In this document: positions 1 to 18,712 of the stretch, in pieces
Position numbering within the stretch: the first letter of the stretch is position 1
Layout of the letters: each line of letters opens with the position of its first letter
Source of the DNA: Piscirickettsiaceae bacterium CG07_land_8_20_14_0_80_44_28
GTDB taxonomy: Bacteria; Pseudomonadota; Gammaproteobacteria; Thiomicrospirales; Thiomicrospiraceae
DNA: 38,321 nt
Reading direction: 5' to 3'
NCBI GenBank assembly: GCA_002779995.1
Contig: PEWX01000085.1
Location: 1 to 38,321 of the forward strand
The notes under the pieces: generated by a model
Databases searched by the model: none
The model's input: only the letters and a program-made list of their open reading frames with translations
Told to the model about the DNA's origin: nothing
Program-made: the position numbers and the translations under genes

Positions 1-67
1 GGAACTTATCGCTCATGAATTTTTCACTTTCTCGGGGATTTTAAATACCTAGCGAGTTTAACATTTT

Positions 68-619
68 ATGGTCGGAAAGTCCGACAAGCTGCTAGCTTTG
101 ATATTGGGTTTAATGCCCATTTCAAAAGCAAAAGCACAAGCACAAACATAAGCACAAGTTTGTGAACCCGCCATTATCCGGACCACACCCGATAGCGATT
201 TTACTGTGCATAACAATGGCACGGTAACCCATAACCCCACTGGCTTAATGTGGCAGGTTTACCTAGTGGGTCAGACATGGACTAATGATTCCTGTTGGGG
301 GACTGCCGCAACGCATACCTGGCTGCATGCCTTATAAGTGCCTCAAACCCTCAATAGCCAGGGGGGCTATGACGATCATACCGATGGGCGTTTACCGAAT
401 ATAAAAGAACTGGCCTCTATAGTAGAGCTGGCGTGCTATGATCCTGCACTCAATGCCACCATTTTTAAAACTGCGCCGTTAAGCTTTGTTTGGTCGGCCT
501 CGCCGTATGCTGACTTTAGTGGCAGTGCGTGGGGTGTCTATTTCAATGATGGCAGCGACTACAACGATTATCGCGACTACTACGGCAATTATGTGCGTCT
601 CGTGCGCAGCGGACAGTAA
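68..619 (+). pseudogene. DUF1566 (Lcl_C) secreted protein, broken by two stops
   Basis: Reading from the ATG at 68 gives a short basic start and a hydrophobic stretch (LLALILGLMPIS) ending in a KAKAQAQ segment, like a signal peptide. It continues in the same frame into a DUF1566 domain, with NGTVTHNPTGLMWQ early, then GRLPNIKELASIV, VWSASPYA and a C-terminal YVRLVRSGQ before the natural stop at 619. The frame is interrupted by TAA at 149-151, inside a run of GCACAA-like repeats, and by TAA at 335-337. No frameshift is needed to join the pieces, so the damage is two nonsense changes. The stretch 536-592 has 19 consecutive codons ending in C or T and encodes mostly Y, N, D, G and S, as in variable regions of diversity-generating retroelement targets. 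No strong ribosome site precedes the ATG. A GTG at 338 could start a shorter product, but it would lack secretion. Confidence 0.75.
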
Positions 620-917
620 CTTTGGCCGCGGAACGGCTTTTGTCAATTGGAGGCGTTATTGGATATTATTAAACTGTATCAAACAGAGAATGGATGGATG
701 ATTTTCCACTGACCCTCAATGACTAACCCCTGTTGCATATCTAGGGGGTTCAGGTATTCTTTGCGCATTGGTATGCGCTGATCTTCCTGATCCGCTTCCT
801 AAGCGGCTTGCAGCGTTGATATTGGGATGATTTTCATGTGCCCGAGGTGGTTGGTGGTTGATGTCGCTGCTGTCTCGCATGGTTTTTCACCATTATTTCA
901 ATGTGTCAAAGTTTCGC
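620..917. other. Intergenic region without a convincing gene
   Basis: No recognisable gene is present. A GGAGG at 649-653 precedes a 17-codon frame starting TTG at 659 and stopping at 712, which I cannot assign and which may be a gene remnant. A short perfect inverted repeat, CCGCTT-cct-AAGCGG, lies at 792-806, but it has no T-run and is not a convincing terminator. Confidence 0.5.
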
Positions 918-946
918 TTGCCAGAGATCTGTATGTAGTATAGTAT
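918..946 (+). promoter_or_regulatory. Candidate sigma-70 promoter of the regulator-hyf operon
   Basis: TTGCCA at 918-923 and TAGTAT at 941-946 are separated by 17 bp, which fits the -35/-10 layout with 5/6 and 4/6 matches to consensus. The start point would be near 953, about 50 bp before the ATG of the XRE-type gene. The AT-rich stretch just downstream (about 946-965) could hold an operator for that regulator. This is a motif-based call only. Confidence 0.45.
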
Positions 947-1004
947 TGTCAATATTTTATATATCAACAGCCCTATACAGTCTATCTATTAAAATGAAAC
1001 GCAT

Positions 1005-1259
1005 ATGATTACTCTCGCTCCGATCCGTGCTGCCCGCGTCCTGTTGGGTTTGGGTCAGCGTCCACTAGCCAAAATCGCCGATTTCTCCTTATCCACTATT
1101 CAACAGATGGAAGCCATTGATGAGCCGGTACGCGGCAATGTGGCATTCGTGGCTAAAGTAGTGGATGCGCCGGAACGGGCCGGGGGTATGGCAAGTGCGG
1201 GAGACGGTCGTGGGATGTGTCTGAAGGTCTTTGGGAAGGAGGCGCCGGAACAATGGTGA
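1005..1259 (+). CDS. Small XRE-type helix-turn-helix regulator
   Basis: This 84-residue protein begins MITLAPIRAARVLLGLGQ and continues with an HTH-like segment: QRPLAKIADFSLSTIQQME, then VRGNVAFVAKVVDAPERAG. That matches the short single-domain XRE/Cro-type regulators with an RAAR-LLGxxQxxLA pattern and a recognition helix around SLSTIQQME (residues about 28-36). These proteins usually bind operator DNA as dimers. The gene overlaps the start of hyfB by 7 bp, so it is almost certainly cotranscribed with the hyf genes and is their best local regulator candidate. The C-terminal 20 residues after ERAG diverge from the usual GVEL-type ending, so the tail may have been altered when it was joined to hyfB. 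The target is inferred from position only. Confidence 0.7.
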   Translation: MITLAPIRAARVLLGLGQRPLAKIADFSLSTIQQMEAIDEPVRGNVAFVAKVVDAPERAGGMASAGDGRGMCLKVFGKEAPEQW

Positions 1260-3259
1260 TTTCTCCCTTGTTACTGGCCGGTGTGGCGGTTGCGCTGGCG
1301 CTATTGTCCGCGCTGGTGTCGCTGTTTTCGGCTCGGCTGCCGTGGTTGTTGCGCCGCGTGGTGACGCCCTTGTTTACCCTAGCCGGGCTGGCTGCCCTTG
1401 CCGCCGGGCTGGGAACGCTGATTCAGGGCGGGGTCGCAGTCACTCAGCTGCCCTTGGGGTTGCCCTGGCTGCCTTGGGGCGTGCGCCTGGATGCTTTGTC
1501 CGGTTTCTTTCTCTGTTTAATTGGCGTGGTTAGCTTCGCCGTGGGTCTGTATTCCCCCGGTTATGTGCGCAGCTTTGAGAAAGAATGCGGTTCTTTGCCG
1601 GCGCTAGGGGGTTTTTCCGGTCTGTTTCTGACTGGGATGTTACTGGTGGTGTTGGCGGATGATGCTTTTCTGTTTATGGTAGCCTGGGAGCTGATGTCTT
1701 TATCTAGCTATTTTCTGGTCGCCTTTCATCATAACCAAGCCGCCAACCGTCGTGCGGCATTCCTTTATCTGCTGATGGCTCACATCGGCGGCTTGGCCAT
1801 TCTGCTGGGTTATGGTGTGCTGGCCTCGTTTGGCGATGGCTTTGCCTTTGACGCCATGCGTCAGGCAGATCTCTCTTTTGGCTGGGCCAGTGTTGCCTTT
1901 GTGCTGGCTTTCGTTGGCTTCGGTATGAAAGCGGGTCTGGTGCCACTGCATGCTTGGCTGCCCGAAGCTCATCCGGCGGCACCGTCGCATATCTCGGCGC
2001 TGATGTCGGGGGTGATGCTCAAGGTAGCGGTATACGGATTCATCCGCGTGGTGTTCGACCTTATCGGCCAGTTCCACTGGCAGTGGAGTGTGGCGGTGCT
2101 GGCTATCGGTAGTGTTTCGGCCTTGATGGGGATTCTTTATGCCTTGATGCAAAATGATCTGAAGCGGCTGCTGGCCTATAGTTCTGTGGAGAATATCGGC
2201 ATTATCTTTATTGCGTTGGGCTTGGCGATGCTGTTTCTGTCAACCGGTCATCCCGTGGTGGGTAGCGTCGCCTTTGTCGCCGCGCTCTATCACAGCATCA
2301 ATCACGCGGTGTTTAAAAGTCTGTTGTTCATGGGGGCGGGCGCCGTGCTGCACACCACCCACGAGCGAGATCTTGAGCAGATGGGCGGGCTGTTGCGGCG
2401 TATGCCTTGGACTGGGTTGTTTTTCTTGGTTGGCTGTATTTCCATCGCGGCGTTGCCACCCTTCAACGGCTTCGTTTCCGAGTGGCTGACTTTTCAAGCG
2501 GCATTGCAGGCTTGGCAGCTGGACAGCGGGGTGCTTCGCAGTATGGTGCCTATCGTTGCGGCGGTACTGGCCATCACCGGTGCCTTGGCGGCGGCTTGTT
2601 TCGTCAAAGTCTATGGCGTGGCCTTTCTCGGCCAGGCTCGCAGCCGCCATGTGCGCCGCGCGCGCAAGGTGCCTTTTAGTATGCGTCTCGGCCAAGGGGT
2701 GCTGGCGCTGATGTGTTTGTTACTGGGGCTGTTGCCGACCGCCTTTATCGACCTGCTGAATGCCGTGCCGCAACAGGTGTTGGGTCATGGTCTTGCTCAG
2801 GCCTCCGCTCACGGCTGGCTGTGGCTGACGCCGATCTCTGCCGAGACGGCCAGTTACGGGGCGCCGTTGGTGGCTATCATCCTAGTGATCGCCCTCATGC
2901 TGGGTCTTTGGTTATTAGGCCGCGGGATTCGCCGTGTGCGTCGTTGTGATGCTTGGGATTGTGGTTTTGCGCCGCCGACCCCGGCGATGCAGTACACTGC
3001 CAGCGCCTTCGCGCAACCAATCCGTCGGGTGTTTGGAATGTTGTTCCATATTGACGAGGGCAGCGAGCCACAGCCGGACGGACGATGGCGTTATTATCTG
3101 AACGTGCGTGACCGCGCCTGGGGATTGTTCTACCTGCCGGTGGCGGCACTTGTGGAGCGTGCTTCTCGGCAGGTCGTGCGCCTGCAATCCGGTAATATCC
3201 GCACCTATCTGGGCTGGACTCTGGCGACTCTGCTGGTGTTGTTATGGCTGACGGCATGA
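1253..3259 (+). CDS. hyfB: Hydrogenase-4 type antiporter-like subunit HyfB
   Basis: This 668-residue, highly hydrophobic protein belongs to the NuoL/MrpA/HyfB proton-translocating family. Membrane segments fill most of its length. Hallmarks seen are the glutamate in AWELMSLSSYF (Glu146), the lysine in GMKAGLVPLHAWLPEAHP (Lys226), and a later SSVENIGI segment with HSINHAVFKSLLF. These residues line the ion path in related complexes. The chosen ATG at 1253 has AAGGAGG at 1236-1242 in front of it, and an upstream in-frame start at 1217 would lack such a site. The gene overlaps the XRE-type gene upstream and hyfC downstream. Base composition is clearly more G+C-rich than the urease genes that follow. 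It probably couples electron or ligand chemistry in the HyfG/HyfI arm to ion movement. Confidence 0.9.
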   Translation: MVISPLLLAGVAVALALLSALVSLFSARLPWLLRRVVTPLFTLAGLAALAAGLGTLIQGGVAVTQLPLGLPWLPWGVRLDALSGFFLCLIGVVSFAVGLYSPGYVRSFEKECGSLPALGGFSGLFLTGMLLVVLADDAFLFMVAWELMSLSSYFLVAFHHNQAANRRAAFLYLLMAHIGGLAILLGYGVLASFGDGFAFDAMRQADLSFGWASVAFVLAFVGFGMKAGLVPLHAWLPEAHPAAPSHISALMSGVMLKVAVYGFIRVVFDLIGQFHWQWSVAVLAIGSVSALMGILYALMQNDLKRLLAYSSVENIGIIFIALGLAMLFLSTGHPVVGSVAFVAALYHSINHAVFKSLLFMGAGAVLHTTHERDLEQMGGLLRRMPWTGLFFLVGCISIAALPPFNGFVSEWLTFQAALQAWQLDSGVLRSMVPIVAAVLAITGALAAACFVKVYGVAFLGQARSRHVRRARKVPFSMRLGQGVLALMCLLLGLLPTAFIDLLNAVPQQVLGHGLAQASAHGWLWLTPISAETASYGAPLVAIILVIALMLGLWLLGRGIRRVRRCDAWDCGFAPPTPAMQYTASAFAQPIRRVFGMLFHIDEGSEPQPDGRWRYYLNVRDRAWGLFYLPVAALVERASRQVVRLQSGNIRTYLGWTLATLLVLLWLTA

Positions 3260-4209
3260 TGTTTATCGAATGGCTACTGGCCTTTGTGCAGGCGCTACTT
3301 TATGTTGCCCTGGCGCCCTTGCTGGTGGGGTGGATACGCACACTCAAGGCGCGTCTGCAGAACCGCCGTGGTCCCTCTGTGTTGCAGTCCTACCGGGATC
3401 TGTACAAGTTGTTCGCCAAGGAGGCTCGCATGGCGCATAGCGCCTCGTTGCTGTTCCGCGCCGCGCCCTATATCGTTTTTGTCGCCACCTGGTTGGCCGC
3501 CGCCGCCGTGCCCTTTGTGACCACTAGCCTGCCGACCGCCGCCATGGCGGATGTCATTGTGATCGCGGGTCTGTTGGCGCTGGCGCGCTTTTTTCTGGCT
3601 TTGGCTGCTATGGATGTGGGCACTGCCTTTGGTGGCATGGGCGCCTCGCGCGAGATGTTCGTCTCGGCGTTAGCAGAGCCCGCTATGTTGATGGCCGTGT
3701 TCACCCTGGCCATGACCGCACACAGTACCAATCTGGCCAGCATGATGGATTATCAATTGTTTAATGACCCGGTACTGCGTCCCTCTTATATGTTTGCCCT
3801 AGCCGGTCTGGTGTTGGTGGCCGTGGCCGAGACCGGACGTATACCGATAGATAATCCCGCGACCCATTTGGAACTAACTATGATACACGAGGCCATGATT
3901 CTGGAATACTCTGGACGACACCTAGCACTGATGGAGTGGGCGGCGCAGTTGAAGTTGCTACTTTATGGCGTGTTGCTGGCCAATGTTTTTTCCCCCACCG
4001 GCATTGCCACCACCACTGACCCCGGCGCCCTAGGTCTGGCGCTGGTCGTGGTTATGTTTAAGCTCGCCTTGCTGGGTGTGGCGCTGGCCATCAGCGAGAC
4101 GGTACTCGCCAAGATGCGTTTGTTCCGGGCGCCAGCCTTTCTTAATCTGGCTTTGCTACTGACGCTACTGGGTCTGCTCAGTCATGTCATCCTAGAGGTG
4201 GGCGTATGA
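3256..4209 (+). CDS. hyfC: NuoH/HyfC-like membrane anchor subunit
   Basis: This 317-residue membrane protein is of the NuoH/HyfC/HycD family, which connects the hydrophilic arm to the ion-pumping subunits. Seen are NRRGPSVLQSYRDLYKLFAKE near residues 35-55 and ETGRIPIDNPATHLELTMIHEAM in the middle, the acidic loop that is diagnostic of this family. About eight hydrophobic segments are apparent. The ATG at 3256 forms an ATGA overlap with the hyfB stop. An ATG at 3244 and another at 3259 are alternatives and change only the first few residues. The next gene starts inside the stop of this one, implying translational coupling. Confidence 0.88.
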   Translation: MMFIEWLLAFVQALLYVALAPLLVGWIRTLKARLQNRRGPSVLQSYRDLYKLFAKEARMAHSASLLFRAAPYIVFVATWLAAAAVPFVTTSLPTAAMADVIVIAGLLALARFFLALAAMDVGTAFGGMGASREMFVSALAEPAMLMAVFTLAMTAHSTNLASMMDYQLFNDPVLRPSYMFALAGLVLVAVAETGRIPIDNPATHLELTMIHEAMILEYSGRHLALMEWAAQLKLLLYGVLLANVFSPTGIATTTDPGALGLALVVVMFKLALLGVALAISETVLAKMRLFRAPAFLNLALLLTLLGLLSHVILEVGV

Positions 4210-4892
4210 GCCTCGGCGAACTGCCCTTTCTGCAGCAGCTGACGCTGGTATTGGCCGCAGTTGTGCTGTTTACCTCGTTCGCGCTACTGGAGCAGGCACG
4301 GTTGGTGGCGGCCATCCACGCCTTCGCTTGGCAGGGGCTACTGGTGGCCATGGTAACAGCGATTGTCGCCGCCAGTGGCGGATACCCCCATCTGTTTTTT
4401 TCCGCCGCGCTCACCTTGGGGCTGAAAGTGCTGCTGATCCCCTGGATGCTGCACCGTCTGGTGCACCGGCTTCAGCTGGATCGCCATCGCGAGCCTTTGC
4501 GCAGACCGGCGCTGATCACTATGGCGGCGTTGGCACTGGTGATTTTTAGTTACTGGCTGGTATTGCCGCTGGTGCAGCAGGAGCTGCTGTTTACGCGCAA
4601 CATTGTCGCAGTGAGTCTGGCGGTGGTGCTCATCGGCCTGTTGATGATGGTGATCCGTGCCCAAGCCGTGGTTCAGGTGCTGGGCTTTATGTCCATTGAG
4701 AATGGTTTGTTTCTGGCGGCGGTCTCCGCTACGGGTGGTATGCCTCTGGTGGTGGAGCTGGGCGTGGCATTTGACGTGCTAGTCGCTATGGTGCTGTTCG
4801 GCGTGTTTTTCTTTCAGATCAGCGAGAGTATCGATTCGCTCGATGTGGATCGTCTGAACAGCCTGACCGAAAGGGCGGAGGAGGAGTCATGA
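4206..4892 (+). CDS. hyfE: HyfE-like membrane subunit (NuoK-related)
   Basis: This 228-residue membrane protein has a NuoK-like core toward its C-terminus, including FMSIENGLFLAAVSATGGMPLVVELGVAFDVL. The glutamates in SIEN and VELG correspond to the conserved membrane glutamates of NuoK/HyfE. The N-terminal half adds extra membrane segments, as is usual for HyfE. It ends in a short charged tail (LTERAEEES). The start overlaps the hyfC stop (ATGA), and the stop overlaps the hyfF start, so the genes are tightly coupled. The product would sit between HyfC and the antiporter-like subunits. Confidence 0.85.
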   Translation: MSLGELPFLQQLTLVLAAVVLFTSFALLEQARLVAAIHAFAWQGLLVAMVTAIVAASGGYPHLFFSAALTLGLKVLLIPWMLHRLVHRLQLDRHREPLRRPALITMAALALVIFSYWLVLPLVQQELLFTRNIVAVSLAVVLIGLLMMVIRAQAVVQVLGFMSIENGLFLAAVSATGGMPLVVELGVAFDVLVAMVLFGVFFFQISESIDSLDVDRLNSLTERAEEES

Positions 4893-6361
4893 GTGCGCTT
4901 TCATGGATTCTGATTCTGCCGCTGGCAGGTGCACTTTTGCTGGCGATTATTCGCAACTTGCAATGGGCCGGCTGGCTTAACGTACTGATCTCCACCGCGA
5001 CCTTTATCGCCACCTTGGCACTGGCCTTCACCGTGGTCGAGGAGGGCGTATTGCTCAGCGGCCTATTTCGTGTCGATGACTTTAATGTCTATCTGCTTGT
5101 GCTGACCGCCTTTGTCGGCATGACCACCACCATTTTCTCTCGACCCTATATGCAGCATGTGTGCGACAGCGGCCGTATTAACCATCGTGGCATGCGCCTG
5201 TATCACTCCATGTTTCAGACCTTTATGTTCACCATGCTGCTGGCGCTGTCGACCGATAACCTCGGCGTGCTGTGGGTCTCGGTCGAGGGCGCCACCTTGG
5301 CGACGGTGTTGCTGGTGTCGTTGTACCGTACCCCGGAGGCTATCGAGGCAGCGTGGAAGTATTTCATTCTCTGTGGTGTGGGTATTTCTTTGGCTCTGTT
5401 TGGCACAGTGCTGATGTATTCTGCCGCCCAGCATGTAATTGCGGATCCTGCCGCAGGCTTGAGCTGGAGCACACTGTATGGCGTGGCATCGCAATTGGAA
5501 CCGTCCATCATGAGTCTGGCGTTTGTTTTTCTGCTGGTAGGTTACGGCACTAAAATCGGTTTGGTGCCGATGCACCAGTGGCTGCCGGATGCGCATTCGG
5601 AGGGTCCCACGCCTATGTCTGCGGTGCTATCCGGACTGCTACTCAATGTCGCGCTCTACGCGGTGGTACGCCTGAAGATGCTGGTGGATGGCTCGCTGGC
5701 GGCTACCGCTTCGCCCCATCTCGCGGGGAATCTGTTGATGGGCTTTGGTCTGCTCTCGTTTATCGTCGCAGGGCTATTCCTGCACCGACAACGCGATATC
5801 AAGCGTATGTTCAGCTATTCCTCTATTGAACACATGGGCTTGATGACCTTTGCTTTCGGCCTCGGCGGACCGCTGGCCACCTTCGGCGCGCTGTTGCACA
5901 TGCTGGTGCATTCGCTGACCAAGTCGGCTATTTTTATTACCGTAGGCCATGCTACGCACATCGCCGGCACCCAGTCCATTGATCATATCCGTGGCCTGAT
6001 CCGTACCCAGCCGGCGGTGGGTTGGGGGCTGTTGCTAGGGGTCGCCGCCATCGCCGGTTTTCCACCCTTTGGCGTGTTTACCAGTGAGTTTCTGCTGCTC
6101 ACCGCCACCATGCAGTCGCAACCTTGGCTAACGCTGGTATTGTTGACGGGGTTGGCGGTGGCCTTTGCAGGGCTGTTCCGGCACCTACACCCCATGGTCT
6201 ATGGCCCGGTTCCAGAAGGCCAGCAACCGGTCTCCGCCAATATGCTGCCGGTGGCCGTACATCTCGGGCTGGTGTTGTGGCTGGGGCTGTCCATCCCCGA
6301 TTTTCTGGCACGCTGGCTGGATCGGGCCACCGAATTAATCACTGGGGTGCATCTACTATGA
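4889..6361 (+). CDS. hyfF: Hydrogenase-4 type antiporter-like subunit HyfF
   Basis: This 490-residue membrane protein is the second antiporter-like subunit of the cluster. Family marks are WVSVEGATLATVLLVSLY, with the membrane glutamate, YGTKIGLVPMHQWLPDAHSEGPTPMSA, with the lysine, and YSSIEHMGLMTFAFG followed by HMLVHSLTKSAIF. A GGAGGAG precedes the ATG at 4889, which overlaps the hyfE stop. HyfD, the third antiporter-like subunit of the E. coli Hyf set, is absent, as are HyfA and the ferredoxin-like HyfH. The complex is therefore a minimal B-C-E-F-G-I type. The length is normal for HyfF, and the stop overlaps the hyfG ATG. Confidence 0.88.
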   Translation: MSALSWILILPLAGALLLAIIRNLQWAGWLNVLISTATFIATLALAFTVVEEGVLLSGLFRVDDFNVYLLVLTAFVGMTTTIFSRPYMQHVCDSGRINHRGMRLYHSMFQTFMFTMLLALSTDNLGVLWVSVEGATLATVLLVSLYRTPEAIEAAWKYFILCGVGISLALFGTVLMYSAAQHVIADPAAGLSWSTLYGVASQLEPSIMSLAFVFLLVGYGTKIGLVPMHQWLPDAHSEGPTPMSAVLSGLLLNVALYAVVRLKMLVDGSLAATASPHLAGNLLMGFGLLSFIVAGLFLHRQRDIKRMFSYSSIEHMGLMTFAFGLGGPLATFGALLHMLVHSLTKSAIFITVGHATHIAGTQSIDHIRGLIRTQPAVGWGLLLGVAAIAGFPPFGVFTSEFLLLTATMQSQPWLTLVLLTGLAVAFAGLFRHLHPMVYGPVPEGQQPVSANMLPVAVHLGLVLWLGLSIPDFLARWLDRATELITGVHLL

Positions 6362-7953
6362 GTCGTTTTAACTGGCTAGCCGAATACCTCGCCCGTCTCG
6401 AAGAGCAACGGGTGAGTGTACGCAGTGGTGATGCGGCATGTCTGTCGCCGGCACACTGTCTGTTCCTAGATGCCGAGGACTGGGGTAAGGCGGCGCGGGT
6501 TGCCGCCGAGTCCGGTTTTCGCTGGGCAGGCATCTGGGGCGACCCTGTCGCGGAGGGTATTGTGATTCGCGCCGCGCTCGTGCAGGGGGGGGATTACCTG
6601 GTACTCGTGACCGAGGTGCCGCTGAAAAATCCGCTAATCGCCTCCCATACACCCCCTTTCCCGGCCGCCAATCGCATGGAACGACACCTTCAGGATCTGC
6701 TCGGTATCGGTTTCCTGGATCATCCTGATGATCGCCGCTGGACTCGCCACCAGGCCTGGCCGGAAGGCCGCTATCCGCTGCGCACTGATTTCCCCGTGGC
6801 TGGAGAGTCTCAGCGGCGCACGCCCGCCGACAGTGACTATCCCTTTGTGCAGGTGCTGGGCAGCGGTGTCTATGAGATCCCTGTGGGACCGGTTCACGCC
6901 GGTATTATCGAACCCGGTCACTTCCGCTTTCAGGCGGTGGGAGAGGAAGTGTTGCAACTGGAGGCGCACTTAGGGTACGTGCACAAGGGCATCGAGAAGA
7001 TCGCCGTGGGGCGCGACCCCGTTGGACTGGCTCGTCTGGCGGGGCGGGTTTCCGGCGACACCACGGTGGCGCATACTTGGGCGGCCTGCATGGCGATGGA
7101 GCGTGCCGCCGGGGTGGTGGTGCCGGCGCGTGGGCTGGTGATCCGAGCCGTGCTCGCCGAACGCGAGCGCATTGCCAACCATCTGGGCGATATCGGCGCT
7201 ATCTGTAATGATGTGGGTTTCGCCTTTGCCCAACTACAATTTTCGCGGCTGCGTGAGCAATGGCTGCGCGACAATCAGTCTGTATTTGGTCACCGTCTGC
7301 TGATGGACTGCATTGTCCCCGGCGGGGTGGGGTGTGATCTAGGCGATCAGCACAAGGCCGCATTACAGTCGTCATTCGGGGTGCTGTCGCGGGAGCTGGA
7401 TGATTTGTTGCCCATTCTCGATGACCACTCTTCGCTGGAAGATCGGCTGGTCAGCACCGGTACGTTCTGTGCCACTGACGCAAAACGGCTGGGCGTGCTG
7501 GGTTACCTAGGCAAGGCCAGTGGTCAGGATTATGACGTGCGGCGCGATCATGGCTATGCGCCTTATGATGAACTGGAGGTCGCCTCACCTTGTCGCGACG
7601 AGGGCGATGTGGCTGCTCGGCTGCAGATTCGCGCCGATGAAATCCGCGATTCCTTGCAATTGCTGGATCGGCTGTTACAGCGTCTTCCCACAGGACCGGT
7701 AGGGCTGCCCTGGCCCGATCTTTCTAAACCGCAACGGCCTGCCGTGGGGCTTGGTGTAGTAGAAGGCTGGCGTGGTGAGATCATCAGCTATGTGCGTTTC
7801 GATGCGCATGGGCGCGTGGCGCGCTTTTTCCCACGAGACCCGAGCTGGTTTTCGTGGCCGGCTCTGGAACAGCTCATCCGGGACAATATCGTGCCCGACT
7901 TCCCGGTGTGCAATAAATCCATTAATGGCTCATACTCTGGGCAGGATCTGTAG
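6358..7953 (+). CDS. hyfG: HyfG-like large subunit lacking NiFe ligands (Ehr type)
   Basis: This 531-residue subunit combines a NuoC-like N-terminal domain (about residues 1-150) with a NuoD/hydrogenase large-subunit domain (about 160-531). The fold is recognisable from PVGPVHAGIIEPGHFRF, LGYVHKGIEK and AERERIANHLGDIG. In NiFe enzymes the first cysteine pair lies in an RxCGxC motif, but here the position reads GRVSGDTTVAH (SGDT, 232-235). The C-terminal DPCxxC motif is replaced by DFPVCNKSINGSYSGQDL, with a single cysteine at 518. It therefore cannot hold a NiFe site in the usual way and matches energy-converting hydrogenase-related (Ehr) or complex I-like large subunits. The ATG at 6358 overlaps the hyfF stop. 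A longer upstream reading exists but runs inside hyfF. No hydrogenase maturation genes are nearby. Confidence 0.88.
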   Translation: MSRFNWLAEYLARLEEQRVSVRSGDAACLSPAHCLFLDAEDWGKAARVAAESGFRWAGIWGDPVAEGIVIRAALVQGGDYLVLVTEVPLKNPLIASHTPPFPAANRMERHLQDLLGIGFLDHPDDRRWTRHQAWPEGRYPLRTDFPVAGESQRRTPADSDYPFVQVLGSGVYEIPVGPVHAGIIEPGHFRFQAVGEEVLQLEAHLGYVHKGIEKIAVGRDPVGLARLAGRVSGDTTVAHTWAACMAMERAAGVVVPARGLVIRAVLAERERIANHLGDIGAICNDVGFAFAQLQFSRLREQWLRDNQSVFGHRLLMDCIVPGGVGCDLGDQHKAALQSSFGVLSRELDDLLPILDDHSSLEDRLVSTGTFCATDAKRLGVLGYLGKASGQDYDVRRDHGYAPYDELEVASPCRDEGDVAARLQIRADEIRDSLQLLDRLLQRLPTGPVGLPWPDLSKPQRPAVGLGVVEGWRGEIISYVRFDAHGRVARFFPRDPSWFSWPALEQLIRDNIVPDFPVCNKSINGSYSGQDL

Positions 7954-7962
7954 GATGGAATC

Positions 7963-8469
7963 ATGCTGAGAATATTAAAAAAAATCTGGCGTACCGGCAC
8001 GCTCACTGAAGCGGCTCCGCGCGATAGTGAACTGGAGGCTTTGGGTCAACAGCTCAAGCGTCATATCGACCGGCGTTTTCGCGGAAGTCTGGCTATCCGC
8101 CAAGTGGATGCCGGTTCCTGCAATGGCTGTGAACTGGAGATACACGCCCTCAACAACCCCTATTACGATATCGAGCGCTTCGGTGTGCACTTCGTTGCTT
8201 CGCCGCGCCACGCCGATGCACTGCTGGTGACAGGACCGGTCTCCCGGCATATGGAAACCGCCTTGCGCCGCACCTGGATGGCCACACCTTCGCCCAAGTT
8301 CGTGATCGCTGCCGGTAGCTGCGCTTGTGACGGCGGTGAGTTCGGTATCTCTTATGCCAGTTGTGGCGCGGTGGAGAACGTCATCCCGGTGGACGTGAAG
8401 ATCCCGGGTTGTCCACCGACACCGCAAGACCTGCTGCAAGGGATACTGGCGGCGTTGAGCCAGAAGTAA
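7963..8469 (+). CDS. hyfI: NuoB/HyfI-like iron-sulfur subunit
   Basis: This 168-residue protein is of the NuoB/HyfI small-subunit family and would carry one [4Fe-4S] cluster next to HyfG. The four expected ligands are present: Cys53 and Cys56 in GSCNGCE, Cys120 in AAGSCACDGG and Cys150 in IPGCPPTPQD. The motif ERFGVHFVASPRHADALLVTG is typical of the family. The cluster-binding machinery is thus intact although the large subunit lacks NiFe ligands, which argues for electron transfer, or at least a structural cluster, in the complex. It starts 9 bp after hyfG with AGGATGGA in front. It is the last gene of the G+C-rich operon. The downstream 190 bp hold only a 37-codon frame (8500-8613) that I cannot assign. 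Confidence 0.88.
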   Translation: MLRILKKIWRTGTLTEAAPRDSELEALGQQLKRHIDRRFRGSLAIRQVDAGSCNGCELEIHALNNPYYDIERFGVHFVASPRHADALLVTGPVSRHMETALRRTWMATPSPKFVIAAGSCACDGGEFGISYASCGAVENVIPVDVKIPGCPPTPQDLLQGILAALSQK

Positions 8470-8623
8470 GCGATGAGCCCTGCCTAAAGTTGCAGTTCAG
8501 TGTTGAACCCGCATCCTACTCGAGTTGCAATAATTGGCTTAGAAACCCTACAAGAATACTTGACCATTACACGTTTTTGTGGAGCCTGTAAACAGGTTTG
8601 TAATCGCCACTGAATGTATCGGC

Positions 8624-15748: not shown

Positions 15749-15764
15749 TGGCACAAGTCTTGTT
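15749..15764 (+). promoter_or_regulatory. Sigma-54 promoter of amiE
   Basis: TGGCACAAGTCTTGTT matches TGGCACRNNNNTTGCW at all specified positions except the C of the -12 GC, which is T. Transcription would start near 15776, leaving a leader of about 120 nt with a small hairpin ATGCG...CGCAT at 15783-15800. The NtrC-like sites upstream support nitrogen control. No AmiR/AmiC-type regulators, which control amiE in Pseudomonas, are found nearby. Confidence 0.6.
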
Positions 15765-15898
15765 ATTGAATATGACCATTGGATGCGTTTTAGGGCGCAT
15801 TTAGTTTGATAGCGGCGGCATCCGTCAAAGCGGTGTTGGCGCTAAATCATAACGCAATCCAGTTTAAGTTCAGTTTTCAAATTTATGGGGTAAAAGTA

Positions 15899-16942
15899 AT
15901 GAGACATGGTGATATATCCTCCAGTAACGATACCGTGGGGGTCGCGGTTGTAAACTATAAGATGCCACGACTACATTCCAAGGCAGAAGTTTTAGACAAT
16001 GCCCAGAAAATTGCAGATATGATGATTGGTATGAAACAAGGTCTGCCAGGTATGGATTTGGTGATTTTTCCCGAGTATTCGACTCATGGCATTATGTACG
16101 ATGCCAAAGAAATGTACGACACCGCCTCGACCGTGCCGGGTGACGAAACGCGAATCTTTTCGGAAGCGTGTAAAAAAGCGAAAACTTGGGGAGTCTTCTC
16201 ATTAACGGGCGAACAGCATGAAGAGCATCCTAATAAAGCACCTTATAACACCTTGATTTTGATTAACGACCAAGGTGAGATTGTCCAGAAATATAGAAAA
16301 ATCATGCCGTGGTGTCCGGTTGAAGGTTGGTATCCAGGGGATAAAACCTATATCACCGAAGGGCCTAAAGGAATGATGATCAGTTTGATTATCTGTGATG
16401 ATGGTAACTATCCTGAAATCTGGCGAGACTGTGCAATGAAAGGGGCGGAATTGATTGTTCGATGTCAGGGGTATATGTATCCCGCTAAAGAGCAGCAAAT
16501 CATGGTTTCTAAAGCCATGGCCTGGATGAACAATACCTATGTTGCAGTGGCCAATGCCAGTGGCTTTGACGGTGTTTATTCATACTTCGGACACTCTGCG
16601 ATTATCGGCTTTGACGGGCACACCCTTGGTGAATGCGGCGAAGAAGATTACGGCATTCAATATGCGGAACTGTCTGTTTCTCAAATTAGAGATTTCCGGA
16701 AAAATGCGCAATCACAGAACCATTTATTTAAGTTATTACACCGTGGCTACACGGGTAAGATTAATTCTGGTGAAGAGGATCAAGGGGTTGCCGCTTGTCC
16801 TTATGATTTCTATTCAACTTGGATTAATGATCCTGATAAAGCCAGAGAGCAGGTGGAAAAAATCACCCGTAAGACGGTTGGAACAGCGGAATGTCCGATT
16901 GACGGTATCCCCAACGAAGAGACCCAAAAAGAGCACCGCTAA
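15899..16942 (+). CDS. amiE: Aliphatic amidase
   Basis: This 347-residue member of the nitrilase superfamily is very close to the Pseudomonas AmiE sequence along its whole length. It starts [20 protein letters not shown]. The catalytic residues fall at the expected numbers: Glu59 (FPEYS), Lys134 (KYRKI) and Cys166 ([14 protein letters not shown]). The enzyme hydrolyses short aliphatic amides such as acetamide to the acid and ammonia in the cytoplasm. I use the ATG at 15899 because the homologous start is exact; a longer frame from 15806 adds an unconserved leader. It follows a sigma-54 promoter and lies 24 bp before a VWA-domain gene. Formamide is also a possible substrate. Confidence 0.95.
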
Positions 16943-16966: not shown

Positions 16967-18712
16967 ATGCGATATACGCTTTTTTTAAGTGATGTACAAC
17001 GTCAATTAGAACTGACGCTATTAGCGATTTTCGAGAAGCACTTCCGAGTGCTTCCTCTCTTTGGTGATGGAATAGTGCCTACGATTTGTGAGGGCACTAT
17101 TCTTTTACCCGAATTCATTGAAGCAGAATCTGTGCAGGATGCCCAGCAATGCTTTCTCAGTGCCGCCCTCCACGGCGCAGCCCATCTTATTTATTCCTAT
17201 CCATTAGGTTCTTCTGGTCTCAATAATCGCCAGTTGGTGTTGATTTCTTTAATAGAAGATGCACGTGTTGAGTGGTTGGCGGACAGAAACTTTCCCGGTA
17301 TGTCGGCGTTTTTTCATCGTCACTTTGTTAAGTCACCTTCTGATGCTTTGGTGTTTGAAGAGATGGCCTATTCGGTGGCTTACGCCTTGGCGACAAAGCA
17401 AACGGTCTTTGAAAGCCGGTTTGTTTCTAAAGCCGTGAGATTGTTTAATCAGGCAGTCGCTGAAGATATTCATAATCCGCAGATTTTCAAAGCAATCGGA
17501 TTGGCATTAGCCAATGATATGGGTCAAATGCGAATCAGTATGAATGAAAAAGCCCCCTTTATTCTCGTGCCTTATCGAGATGATAACGCTTATCTGTGGA
17601 ATGATTATCAAGAAACCGATGTGGAAAATGATGCGCCTTTGGATGGTCAGGAAACCGCCAGTGTGACTGGCATGGCTTATAATGAAATTTTAGACGGCAG
17701 ATCGGTGTCCGAGTTCAATAAAGACGCTACTTTAGAAGAGGGATTGGTGTTTCAGGCTGTACAGGAGGATGCGCAGTCCAATCTTCTGAATCAGCCACAG
17801 TGGGTGAGTGAATTTGTCTACCCTGAATGGGATTACAAAATTGCACGTTGGAAACGCGACTGGTGTTCTTTAAATGAGTTTGTTTTTGCTGATGATTCTG
17901 AAAGCGCACTTGATCATCGAGTCGACAAGTATCGTTATTTTGTCAAGAAGCTTCAGCAAATTATCAACACTTATCCGTCACAAATGCATCGGCGGAAAAA
18001 GCAAGAAGATGGCAATGAATTAGATCTTGAGGCAATCATTCAATATAGGGTCGATTTCAAGATGGGTTGTGCCGGTGCTGAATCAAAAATCTATATTGAT
18101 CATGTTAAGGAAAGGCACCAAGAACTCTCATTGTTGGTTTTGCTGGATCTGTCGGAGTCCATGAATGATCTGGATATCGATAATGAAAACACCATTCTTG
18201 ATCTGACATTGGACTCGACAGTGGTGCTTTCAGAGCTATTGGGGTCACTCGGACACAGCTATGCATTCCATGGCTTTAATTCGAATGGTCGTGGTTCGGT
18301 ATCCTATTTCAATATAAAGGACTTCGATCAGGATTCTGAGACGTCATTGCGATCATTGAGTCAGGTTAAAGCTGGCTATTCAACTCGGATGGGCGCCGCG
18401 CTTCGCCATGCTTTTTACAAAATTTTAAAACGCCGAGAGCGGCATAAGTTGATCTTGGTGATTACAGATGGTCAACCGTCAGATATGGATGTCTATGATG
18501 ATCAGTACTTGATTGAGGATGCTGCTATTGCCGTCAATGAAATCGAATCATCTGGTTGTAAGCTATTCTGTTTGTCTTTGGATAAAAATGCCGATCGGTA
18601 TGTGCAAAAAATATTCAGGAAGGGACATTATGAAGTGGTCGAACGCCCCAGTAAGCTCCCTCTGGTTCTAACCAAACTCTATTTGAAAGTGTTTAAATCG
18701 TTTTTGGCTTAA
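16967..18712 (+). CDS. VWA-domain protein, CbbO/NorD-like
   Basis: This 581-residue protein has a C-terminal von Willebrand A domain. Its metal-ion site is visible as DLSES (Asp394, Ser396, Ser398), AGYSTRMGAALR and ITDGQPSDMD. The N-terminal two thirds contain GAAHLIYSYP, LIEDARVEWLAD and YPEWDYKIARWKRDWC, which resemble CbbO and NorD. Those proteins work with a MoxR-class AAA+ ATPase (CbbQ or NorQ) to remodel or activate a metalloenzyme or Rubisco. No such ATPase occurs in this window. The gene starts 24 bp after amiE and is transcribed with it, so a role in amidase or urease activation is an inference from position. The ribosome site is weak. Confidence 0.75.
   Translation: MRYTLFLSDVQRQLELTLLAIFEKHFRVLPLFGDGIVPTICEGTILLPEFIEAESVQDAQQCFLSAALHGAAHLIYSYPLGSSGLNNRQLVLISLIEDARVEWLADRNFPGMSAFFHRHFVKSPSDALVFEEMAYSVAYALATKQTVFESRFVSKAVRLFNQAVAEDIHNPQIFKAIGLALANDMGQMRISMNEKAPFILVPYRDDNAYLWNDYQETDVENDAPLDGQETASVTGMAYNEILDGRSVSEFNKDATLEEGLVFQAVQEDAQSNLLNQPQWVSEFVYPEWDYKIARWKRDWCSLNEFVFADDSESALDHRVDKYRYFVKKLQQIINTYPSQMHRRKKQEDGNELDLEAIIQYRVDFKMGCAGAESKIYIDHVKERHQELSLLVLLDLSESMNDLDIDNENTILDLTLDSTVVLSELLGSLGHSYAFHGFNSNGRGSVSYFNIKDFDQDSETSLRSLSQVKAGYSTRMGAALRHAFYKILKRRERHKLILVITDGQPSDMDVYDDQYLIEDAAIAVNEIESSGCKLFCLSLDKNADRYVQKIFRKGHYEVVERPSKLPLVLTKLYLKVFKSFLA

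Follow-up and report, generated by a model that had tools for sequence, protein, structure and literature searches.

An orphan VWA protein of the CbbQO/NorQD class paired with aliphatic amidase: a probable amidase adaptor

In the CbbQO activase of Rubisco the CbbQ ring is the motor and CbbO is the client adaptor, which binds Rubisco by way of its MIDAS at an acidic residue of the enzyme's surface (PMC4660213). In NorQD a finger is placed in the pore of the ring, and rotation has been proposed to strain the linker between the VWA domain and the N-terminal domain (PMC13036017). Very few clients are known for MoxR/VWA machines of this kind, namely Rubisco, nitric oxide reductase and some respiratory complexes. 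An amidase has been placed in their company on a Pseudomonas veronii plasmid and in Burkholderiales, where amiE is accompanied by genes for a CbbQ/NirQ/NorQ-type ATPase, a NorD-like protein, amiC and amiR, and where the ATPase and the NorD-like protein were suggested to act in assembly or activation of the amidase (PMC13209695, 2026). That paper gives no survey, tree or mechanism, and apart from it no link between an amidase and CbbQO, NorQD or MoxR proteins was found in the open-access literature.

The window, by which we mean the whole stretch of 38,321 nucleotides analysed here, contains a urease cluster followed by amiE, a gene for a VWA protein and then the convergent fmdB, fmdA and UrtA-E-type transporter genes. 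The features around amiE are as follows.

15749 to 15762, forward strand: sigma-54-like promoter core TGGCAC-N5-TTG, a consensus match 5' of amiE
15899 to 16942, forward strand: amiE, aliphatic amidase of 347 residues (NF009802), the proposed client of the adaptor
16967 to 18712, forward strand: gene for the amidase-linked VWA protein, the probable adaptor, 581 residues, ATG start, PF00092, CbbO/NorD class

AmiE scores 722.7 bits against NF009802, for which the cut-off is 427, and is therefore unambiguously an aliphatic amidase, of full length and with the catalytic residues E59, K134, E142 and C166 all in place. The TTG at 15806 is merely the mechanical start of the open reading frame, the gene itself running from 15899 to 16942. 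Both premises of an earlier note, made from the letters of this DNA, hold: the coordinates of the reading frames confirm that the VWA gene begins 24 bp after the amiE stop codon, and a scan with the AAA_5 profile found no gene for a MoxR-type ATPase in the window, the sole match being the P-loop of UreG, below the cut-off. The sigma-54-like site lies 150 bp 5' of the amiE ATG. A similar site is present at 124–152 bp in four relatives and is absent from the remaining relatives compared; judged by sequence, a nitrogen-type promoter for a putative amiE–VWA transcript, as the note had it, is plausible. The resemblance to the P. veronii operon lies in the combination of an amidase with a CbbQ_C ATPase and a NorD-like protein. 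The difference is that there the ATPase is encoded inside the operon, whereas the locus in the window has none and would probably share one with Rubisco. The suggestion that this could be an undescribed system therefore survives in part, the operon of amiE, ATPase and NorD-like protein having been mentioned (PMC13209695), while for the orphan form, the link to CbbQ with sharing of the motor, the phylogeny and the N-terminal signature no description was found in the open-access literature.

The pairing, which the note had seen in one sequence, is kept in other genomes. Within the family of the window amiE is present in 9 of 63 genomes, and an ortholog of the VWA gene is found in the same nine, directly downstream of amiE in all of them with a spacing of 14–34 bp; the pair recurs in other families. 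The hypergeometric probability of such co-occurrence among 63 genomes is 4e-11, ignoring phylogeny, and together with the shared genomes and the strict adjacency this rules out chance pairing. Because the surroundings vary between genomes (G007, for example, has no urease genes beside it), the amiE–VWA pair is to be regarded as a stable unit. The two proteins evolve at different rates, AmiE being 93–98% identical among the family carriers and the VWA protein 43–80%. The dN/dS of the VWA gene is nevertheless about 0.15 between the window and its nearest relative, G012, and about 0.04 between G052 and G043, so that the gene is fast-evolving yet constrained, under purifying selection, and a pseudogene is ruled out for the copy in the window.

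The VWA protein has PF00092 in its C-terminal part (8.6e-10, above the cut-off) and matches no NCBIfam family above cut-off. The AlphaFold model of the full-length protein has a mean pLDDT of 77.5, and an AF2 model of the N-terminal domain has a pLDDT of 90. The following parts can be distinguished.

16967 to 17599, forward strand: N-terminal domain, residues 1–211, with the CbbO-type HxxxH (H69, H73)...EDARVE (97–102)
17606 to 17788, forward strand: predicted disordered linker, residues 214–274, with pLDDT below 50 in the full-length model
17798 to 18706, forward strand: finger plus VWA domain, residues 278–580, matching the VWA domain and finger of NorD
18146 to 18160, forward strand: MIDAS motif DLSES (D394, S396, S398), completed by T473 and D501

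An equivalent linker is carried by NorD (PMC9976466, PMC13036017). In a profile comparison the C-terminal half matches NorD with an E-value of 6e-70, and residues 281–577 of the model superpose on the VWA domain and finger of NorD (9qh6_G) with a Z of 29.0 and an rmsd of 4.5 over 282 aligned residues. The MIDAS residues are invariant across the representatives of amiE-linked VWA proteins, CbbO and NorD, and the elements EWDY and ELDL of the finger and C-terminus, common to all three groups, are likewise kept. The N-terminal domain separates these groups: the signature HxxxH...EDxR[ILV][ED] is present in 41/41 amiE-linked VWA and CbbO-clade proteins and in 0/10 NorD or Nitrospira proteins.

For the N-terminal part of CbbO no homology was reported by Tsai et al, 2015 (PMC4660213). 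In a VIA-align comparison of the N-terminal domain the top rows are mostly metallopeptidases (selecase, abylysin, aminopeptidases), but the best Z is just 5.9, and Foldseek with this domain alone gave no match with an E-value below 0.2. The domain has HxxxH plus a glutamate 24 residues on, with a second position that is never glutamate in the sequences tested. The HExxH site of an active zincin metallopeptidase is missing from all N-terminal domains tested, and a zincin without catalytic activity is one possible identity for this domain in CbbO and the amidase-linked VWA proteins.

In a tree of the C-terminal core the Rubisco-linked CbbO proteins form one clade (100/99) that excludes every amiE-linked VWA protein, and NorD makes up another. 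The amidase-linked proteins belong to neither clade; they are spread over several weakly supported branches, among them long ones, of which those of G616, G655 and G577 are unreliable. Identity with CbbO or NorD is ruled out by this position. The description of the protein as CbbO/NorD-like is thus right as to class, by sequence and by predicted structure (Z 29.0), but it is a member of neither clade. The locus agrees, since it is one of urease, amiE, fmdA and urt genes and not of Rubisco and cbbQ; the CbbO of this genome is encoded on contig C118 with CbbQ and CbbM, and no norB was seen near the VWA gene.

With CbbQO the protein shares the N-terminal HxxxH...EDxR signature, the finger, the MIDAS-bearing VWA domain and, by its presumed use of CbbQ, an ATPase partner of CbbQ_C type; CbbO aligns to it over nearly the full length at about 30–34% identity. 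It differs in being linked to amiE and not to Rubisco, in having an N-terminal part about 195 residues shorter and in lacking an ATPase gene at its own locus. With NorQD it has in common the N-domain, the disordered linker, the finger and the VWA domain with MIDAS (Z 29.0); unlike NorD it lies outside the NorD clade, is not linked to norB and has the CbbO-type N-terminal signature, which is missing in 8/8 NorD sequences. It is a real and conserved variant of the MoxR/VWA adaptor class and is probably functional. In the same tree VWA proteins of about 1000 residues from Nitrospira (L087–L110) are sister to NorD, and no CbbQ/NorQ-type gene is found with them within the fetched DNA.

Wider surveys were made by scanning the contigs of named genomes with a nine-sequence VWA alignment and by searching for AmiE in class and phylum samples; use of the order of G188 as the source of a larger sample gained only three genomes. 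Close relatives of the gammaproteobacterium of the window in the survey include Hydrogenovibrio sp. SC-1 and Thiomicrorhabdus. Outside the family too, proteobacterial amiE genes frequently have a VWA gene of this kind downstream, by itself or together with one for a CbbQ-type AAA+ protein, and four arrangements are seen overall. The VWA gene without a linked ATPase occurs in the family of the window and in several other gammaproteobacterial families, with the exception that in G042, from the same family, the order is amiE–VWA–AAA+. The order amiE–CbbQ-type AAA+–VWA is that of Azospirillum, Ottowia, another member of the Comamonadaceae and other groups. Some amiE genes are followed by a ClpB-D2-like AAA+ gene, which we take to be the AmiB of the Pseudomonas-type amidase operon, and others are solo, having neither VWA, CbbQ-type ATPase nor AmiB. 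AmiB resembles the present case in that an AAA+ protein is encoded directly after amiE, but it belongs to AAA_2 with the ClpB_D2-small family, no VWA partner is seen and its AmiE falls in a separate clade. Since this alternative is itself an AAA+ of ClpB-D2 type, amiE has repeatedly been paired with AAA+ machinery. The VWA loci themselves (29 examined, in fetched stretches that differ in length) all have amiE, usually immediately upstream, whereas urtA is near 21 of them, fmdA near 19 and ureC near 9.

The tree of AmiE sorts by partner. All eleven AmiE proteins of the AmiB type (11/11) fall in one clade (100/99), those with a VWA protein only form another apart from one solo exception (96/86), and those with ATPase plus VWA, or solo, form a third (99/97). 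Two residues of AmiE, E257 (16667–16669) and E340 (16916–16918), are acidic throughout the VWA-only group (18/18) and not in most other AmiE proteins; they are candidates for contact with the adaptor, or else mere markers of the clade. As MIDAS ligands on AmiE they were set aside, as the pattern may just mark the clade.

Several plasmid records carry a triad annotated as aliphatic amidase, CbbQ/NirQ/NorQ/GpvN protein and VWA protein, and in other plasmid records its members are spread inside one cluster. Ottowia thiooxydans (L232, L129) has two separate amiE–ATPase–VWA triads in one genome. On a plasmid of Acidithiobacillus caldus ATCC 51756 (L238, 7141–8931) the VWA gene behind amiE has decayed: two stop codons interrupt its frame, its MIDAS is damaged and it is annotated as two separate coding sequences; insertion sequences lie alongside and there is no AAA+ gene at this locus.

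An ATPase encoded elsewhere, as the earlier note had supposed, is the best-supported motor for the protein in the window, and the best candidate is the CbbQ of the Rubisco locus. The genome encodes a single ATPase with a CbbQ_C domain (G000:C118:9040-9819), beside cbbM (form II Rubisco) and cbbO, and this CbbQ carries the GRxL[LI]x4T (H2i) motif that in NorQD contacts the finger (PMC13036017). The other AAA_5 proteins of MoxR size in the genome are frames of 337 and 357 residues on contig C11. CbbQ is found elsewhere in the genome in 17/17 cases where the amiE–VWA locus has no ATPase (65–72% identical to the G042 query). Nine CbbQ loci outside the family were inspected, and within the fetched DNA cbbO is present at 8/9 and rbcL at 5/9; at that of G188 neither lies within 6 kb. 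Where the ATPase is linked, a second is present in only 4/12 genomes, and in one of these four the additional ATPase is itself part of another amiE triad. The association of unlinked CbbQ with absence of a linked ATPase has a Fisher P of 1e-4 by genomes, but only 0.02 to 0.11 in an earlier, smaller set collapsed to families, and a strong CbbQ match is found in about 35% of the class sample, so that ancestry is a real confounder of the co-occurrence. The orphan form is mostly found in autotroph-rich gammaproteobacterial lineages. Linked ATPases are CbbQ-like wherever present, and that of G042 nests inside the CbbQ proteins of form-I Rubisco loci from its own family (96/86), as expected if a shared CbbQ had been duplicated into the amiE operon; this hint is independent of the co-occurrence. 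Since no dedicated ATPase gene is linked to the VWA gene of the window, sharing of CbbQ in trans is suggested, and CbbQ as the shared motor would seem plausible to likely.

We therefore consider it probable that the VWA protein acts as an adaptor of the CbbQO/NorQD class specific for the amidase and uses the Rubisco activase CbbQ in trans, most likely to reactivate AmiE. What the sequences establish is the pairing, its conservation, the domain architecture, the position in the tree and the co-occurrence with CbbQ; from these we infer the physical partnership with CbbQ, AmiE as the likely client and the chemistry of the repair. By analogy with NorQD the finger and the C-terminus of the VWA domain would dock in the CbbQ-type ring, most likely that formed by CbbQ from the cbbM/cbbO locus, and by analogy with CbbQO the MIDAS would attach to an acidic residue of hexameric AmiE. 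Hydrolysis of ATP would then put strain on the amidase by way of the VWA domain and the N-terminal domain, and this remodelling would most likely bring AmiE back to activity from a non-productive state. For the aliphatic amidase of Pseudomonas, older enzymology reportedly described a slow dead-end complex with urea. The blocked state might be a slowly dissociating complex of urea, or something similar, in the active site, which would fit a locus for the uptake of urea and amides.

Acetamidase activity is seen in a strain in which the sole amiE operon lacks both the ATPase and the VWA gene (PMC13209695), and this, with the solo amiE genes, indicates that the adaptor is not absolutely required for AmiE in general; for the same reasons reactivation, or stabilisation in certain conditions, is favoured over obligatory assembly. 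That the adaptor and a CbbQ-type ring act a single time, in folding or assembly of the AmiE hexamer, with no later repair, would seem somewhat unlikely in the face of related AmiE proteins without a partner and the active partnerless strain, although such a role draws on the same genetic evidence as reactivation, assembly or activation of the amidase has been suggested before (PMC13209695) and NorQD, the closest solved structure, is a maturation machine for nitric oxide reductase (PMC9976466, PMC13036017). AmiE, as an enzyme of the nitrilase superfamily, also lacks a metal cofactor that would have to be inserted. The motor might instead be one of the MoxR-like AAA+ proteins of contig C11, or there might be none, with the VWA protein inhibiting AmiE or serving it as a passive scaffold. 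The presence of AAA_5 proteins of MoxR size in the genome and the absence of a linked ATPase from all of this clade but G042 are compatible with this, but we regard it as unlikely, given that the genome has a single CbbQ_C-domain protein, that every linked ATPase is CbbQ-like, in G042 a duplicated CbbQ, and that the finger and MIDAS are retained.

The client might also be another product of the locus (urease, the formamidase FmdA or the UrtABCDE transporter), with the linkage to amiE reflecting a shared nitrogen operon. Proximity of fmdA to 19/29 and of urtA to 21/29 VWA loci would suit this, as would an Ancylobacter plasmid on which the ATPase and VWA genes adjoin those of urease and amiE lies about 5 kb beyond. 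Only amiE, however, is present at 29/29 loci, usually immediately upstream, and the AmiE tree tracks the type of partner, making another client distinctly improbable; urease, which the earlier note had named as a possible target beside the amidase, is disfavoured and ruled out as first choice by ureC being near only 9/29. It is more improbable still that the adaptor is a degenerating remnant, on its way to being lost after the loss of its ATPase. It does evolve much faster than AmiE (43–80% against 93–98% identity), and the A. caldus plasmid copy, with its two in-frame stops and damaged MIDAS, is decayed, but the window gene is intact, with dN/dS of about 0.15 and 0.04, and the adaptor is kept by every amiE carrier of the family.

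If the VWA protein is an amidase adaptor driven by CbbQ, one CbbQ would serve two unrelated clients in a cell, Rubisco through CbbO and the amidase through the orphan adaptor, a proposal that we put forward tentatively and rate at a little short of even. In that case one MoxR ring could stand in for another as motor, with VWA proteins as swappable client adaptors that link carbon fixation to the use of organic nitrogen, and an adaptor that borrows the motor of another enzyme would offer a testable case of AAA+ adaptor swapping. The amidase would have gained AAA+ helpers at least twice, as the ClpB-like AmiB and as the CbbQ type with VWA, which would parallel the several activases of Rubisco. 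A metal-free hydrolase as client would widen the role of these machines and favour conformational remodelling over metal insertion as their common task.

At the other end of the window, positions 1–8500 form a block rich in G+C, with 52–61% against 40–48% elsewhere, which was possibly acquired horizontally. Its reading frames, with genes named by eye, resemble a membrane complex of the hydrogenase-4/formate-hydrogenlyase type.
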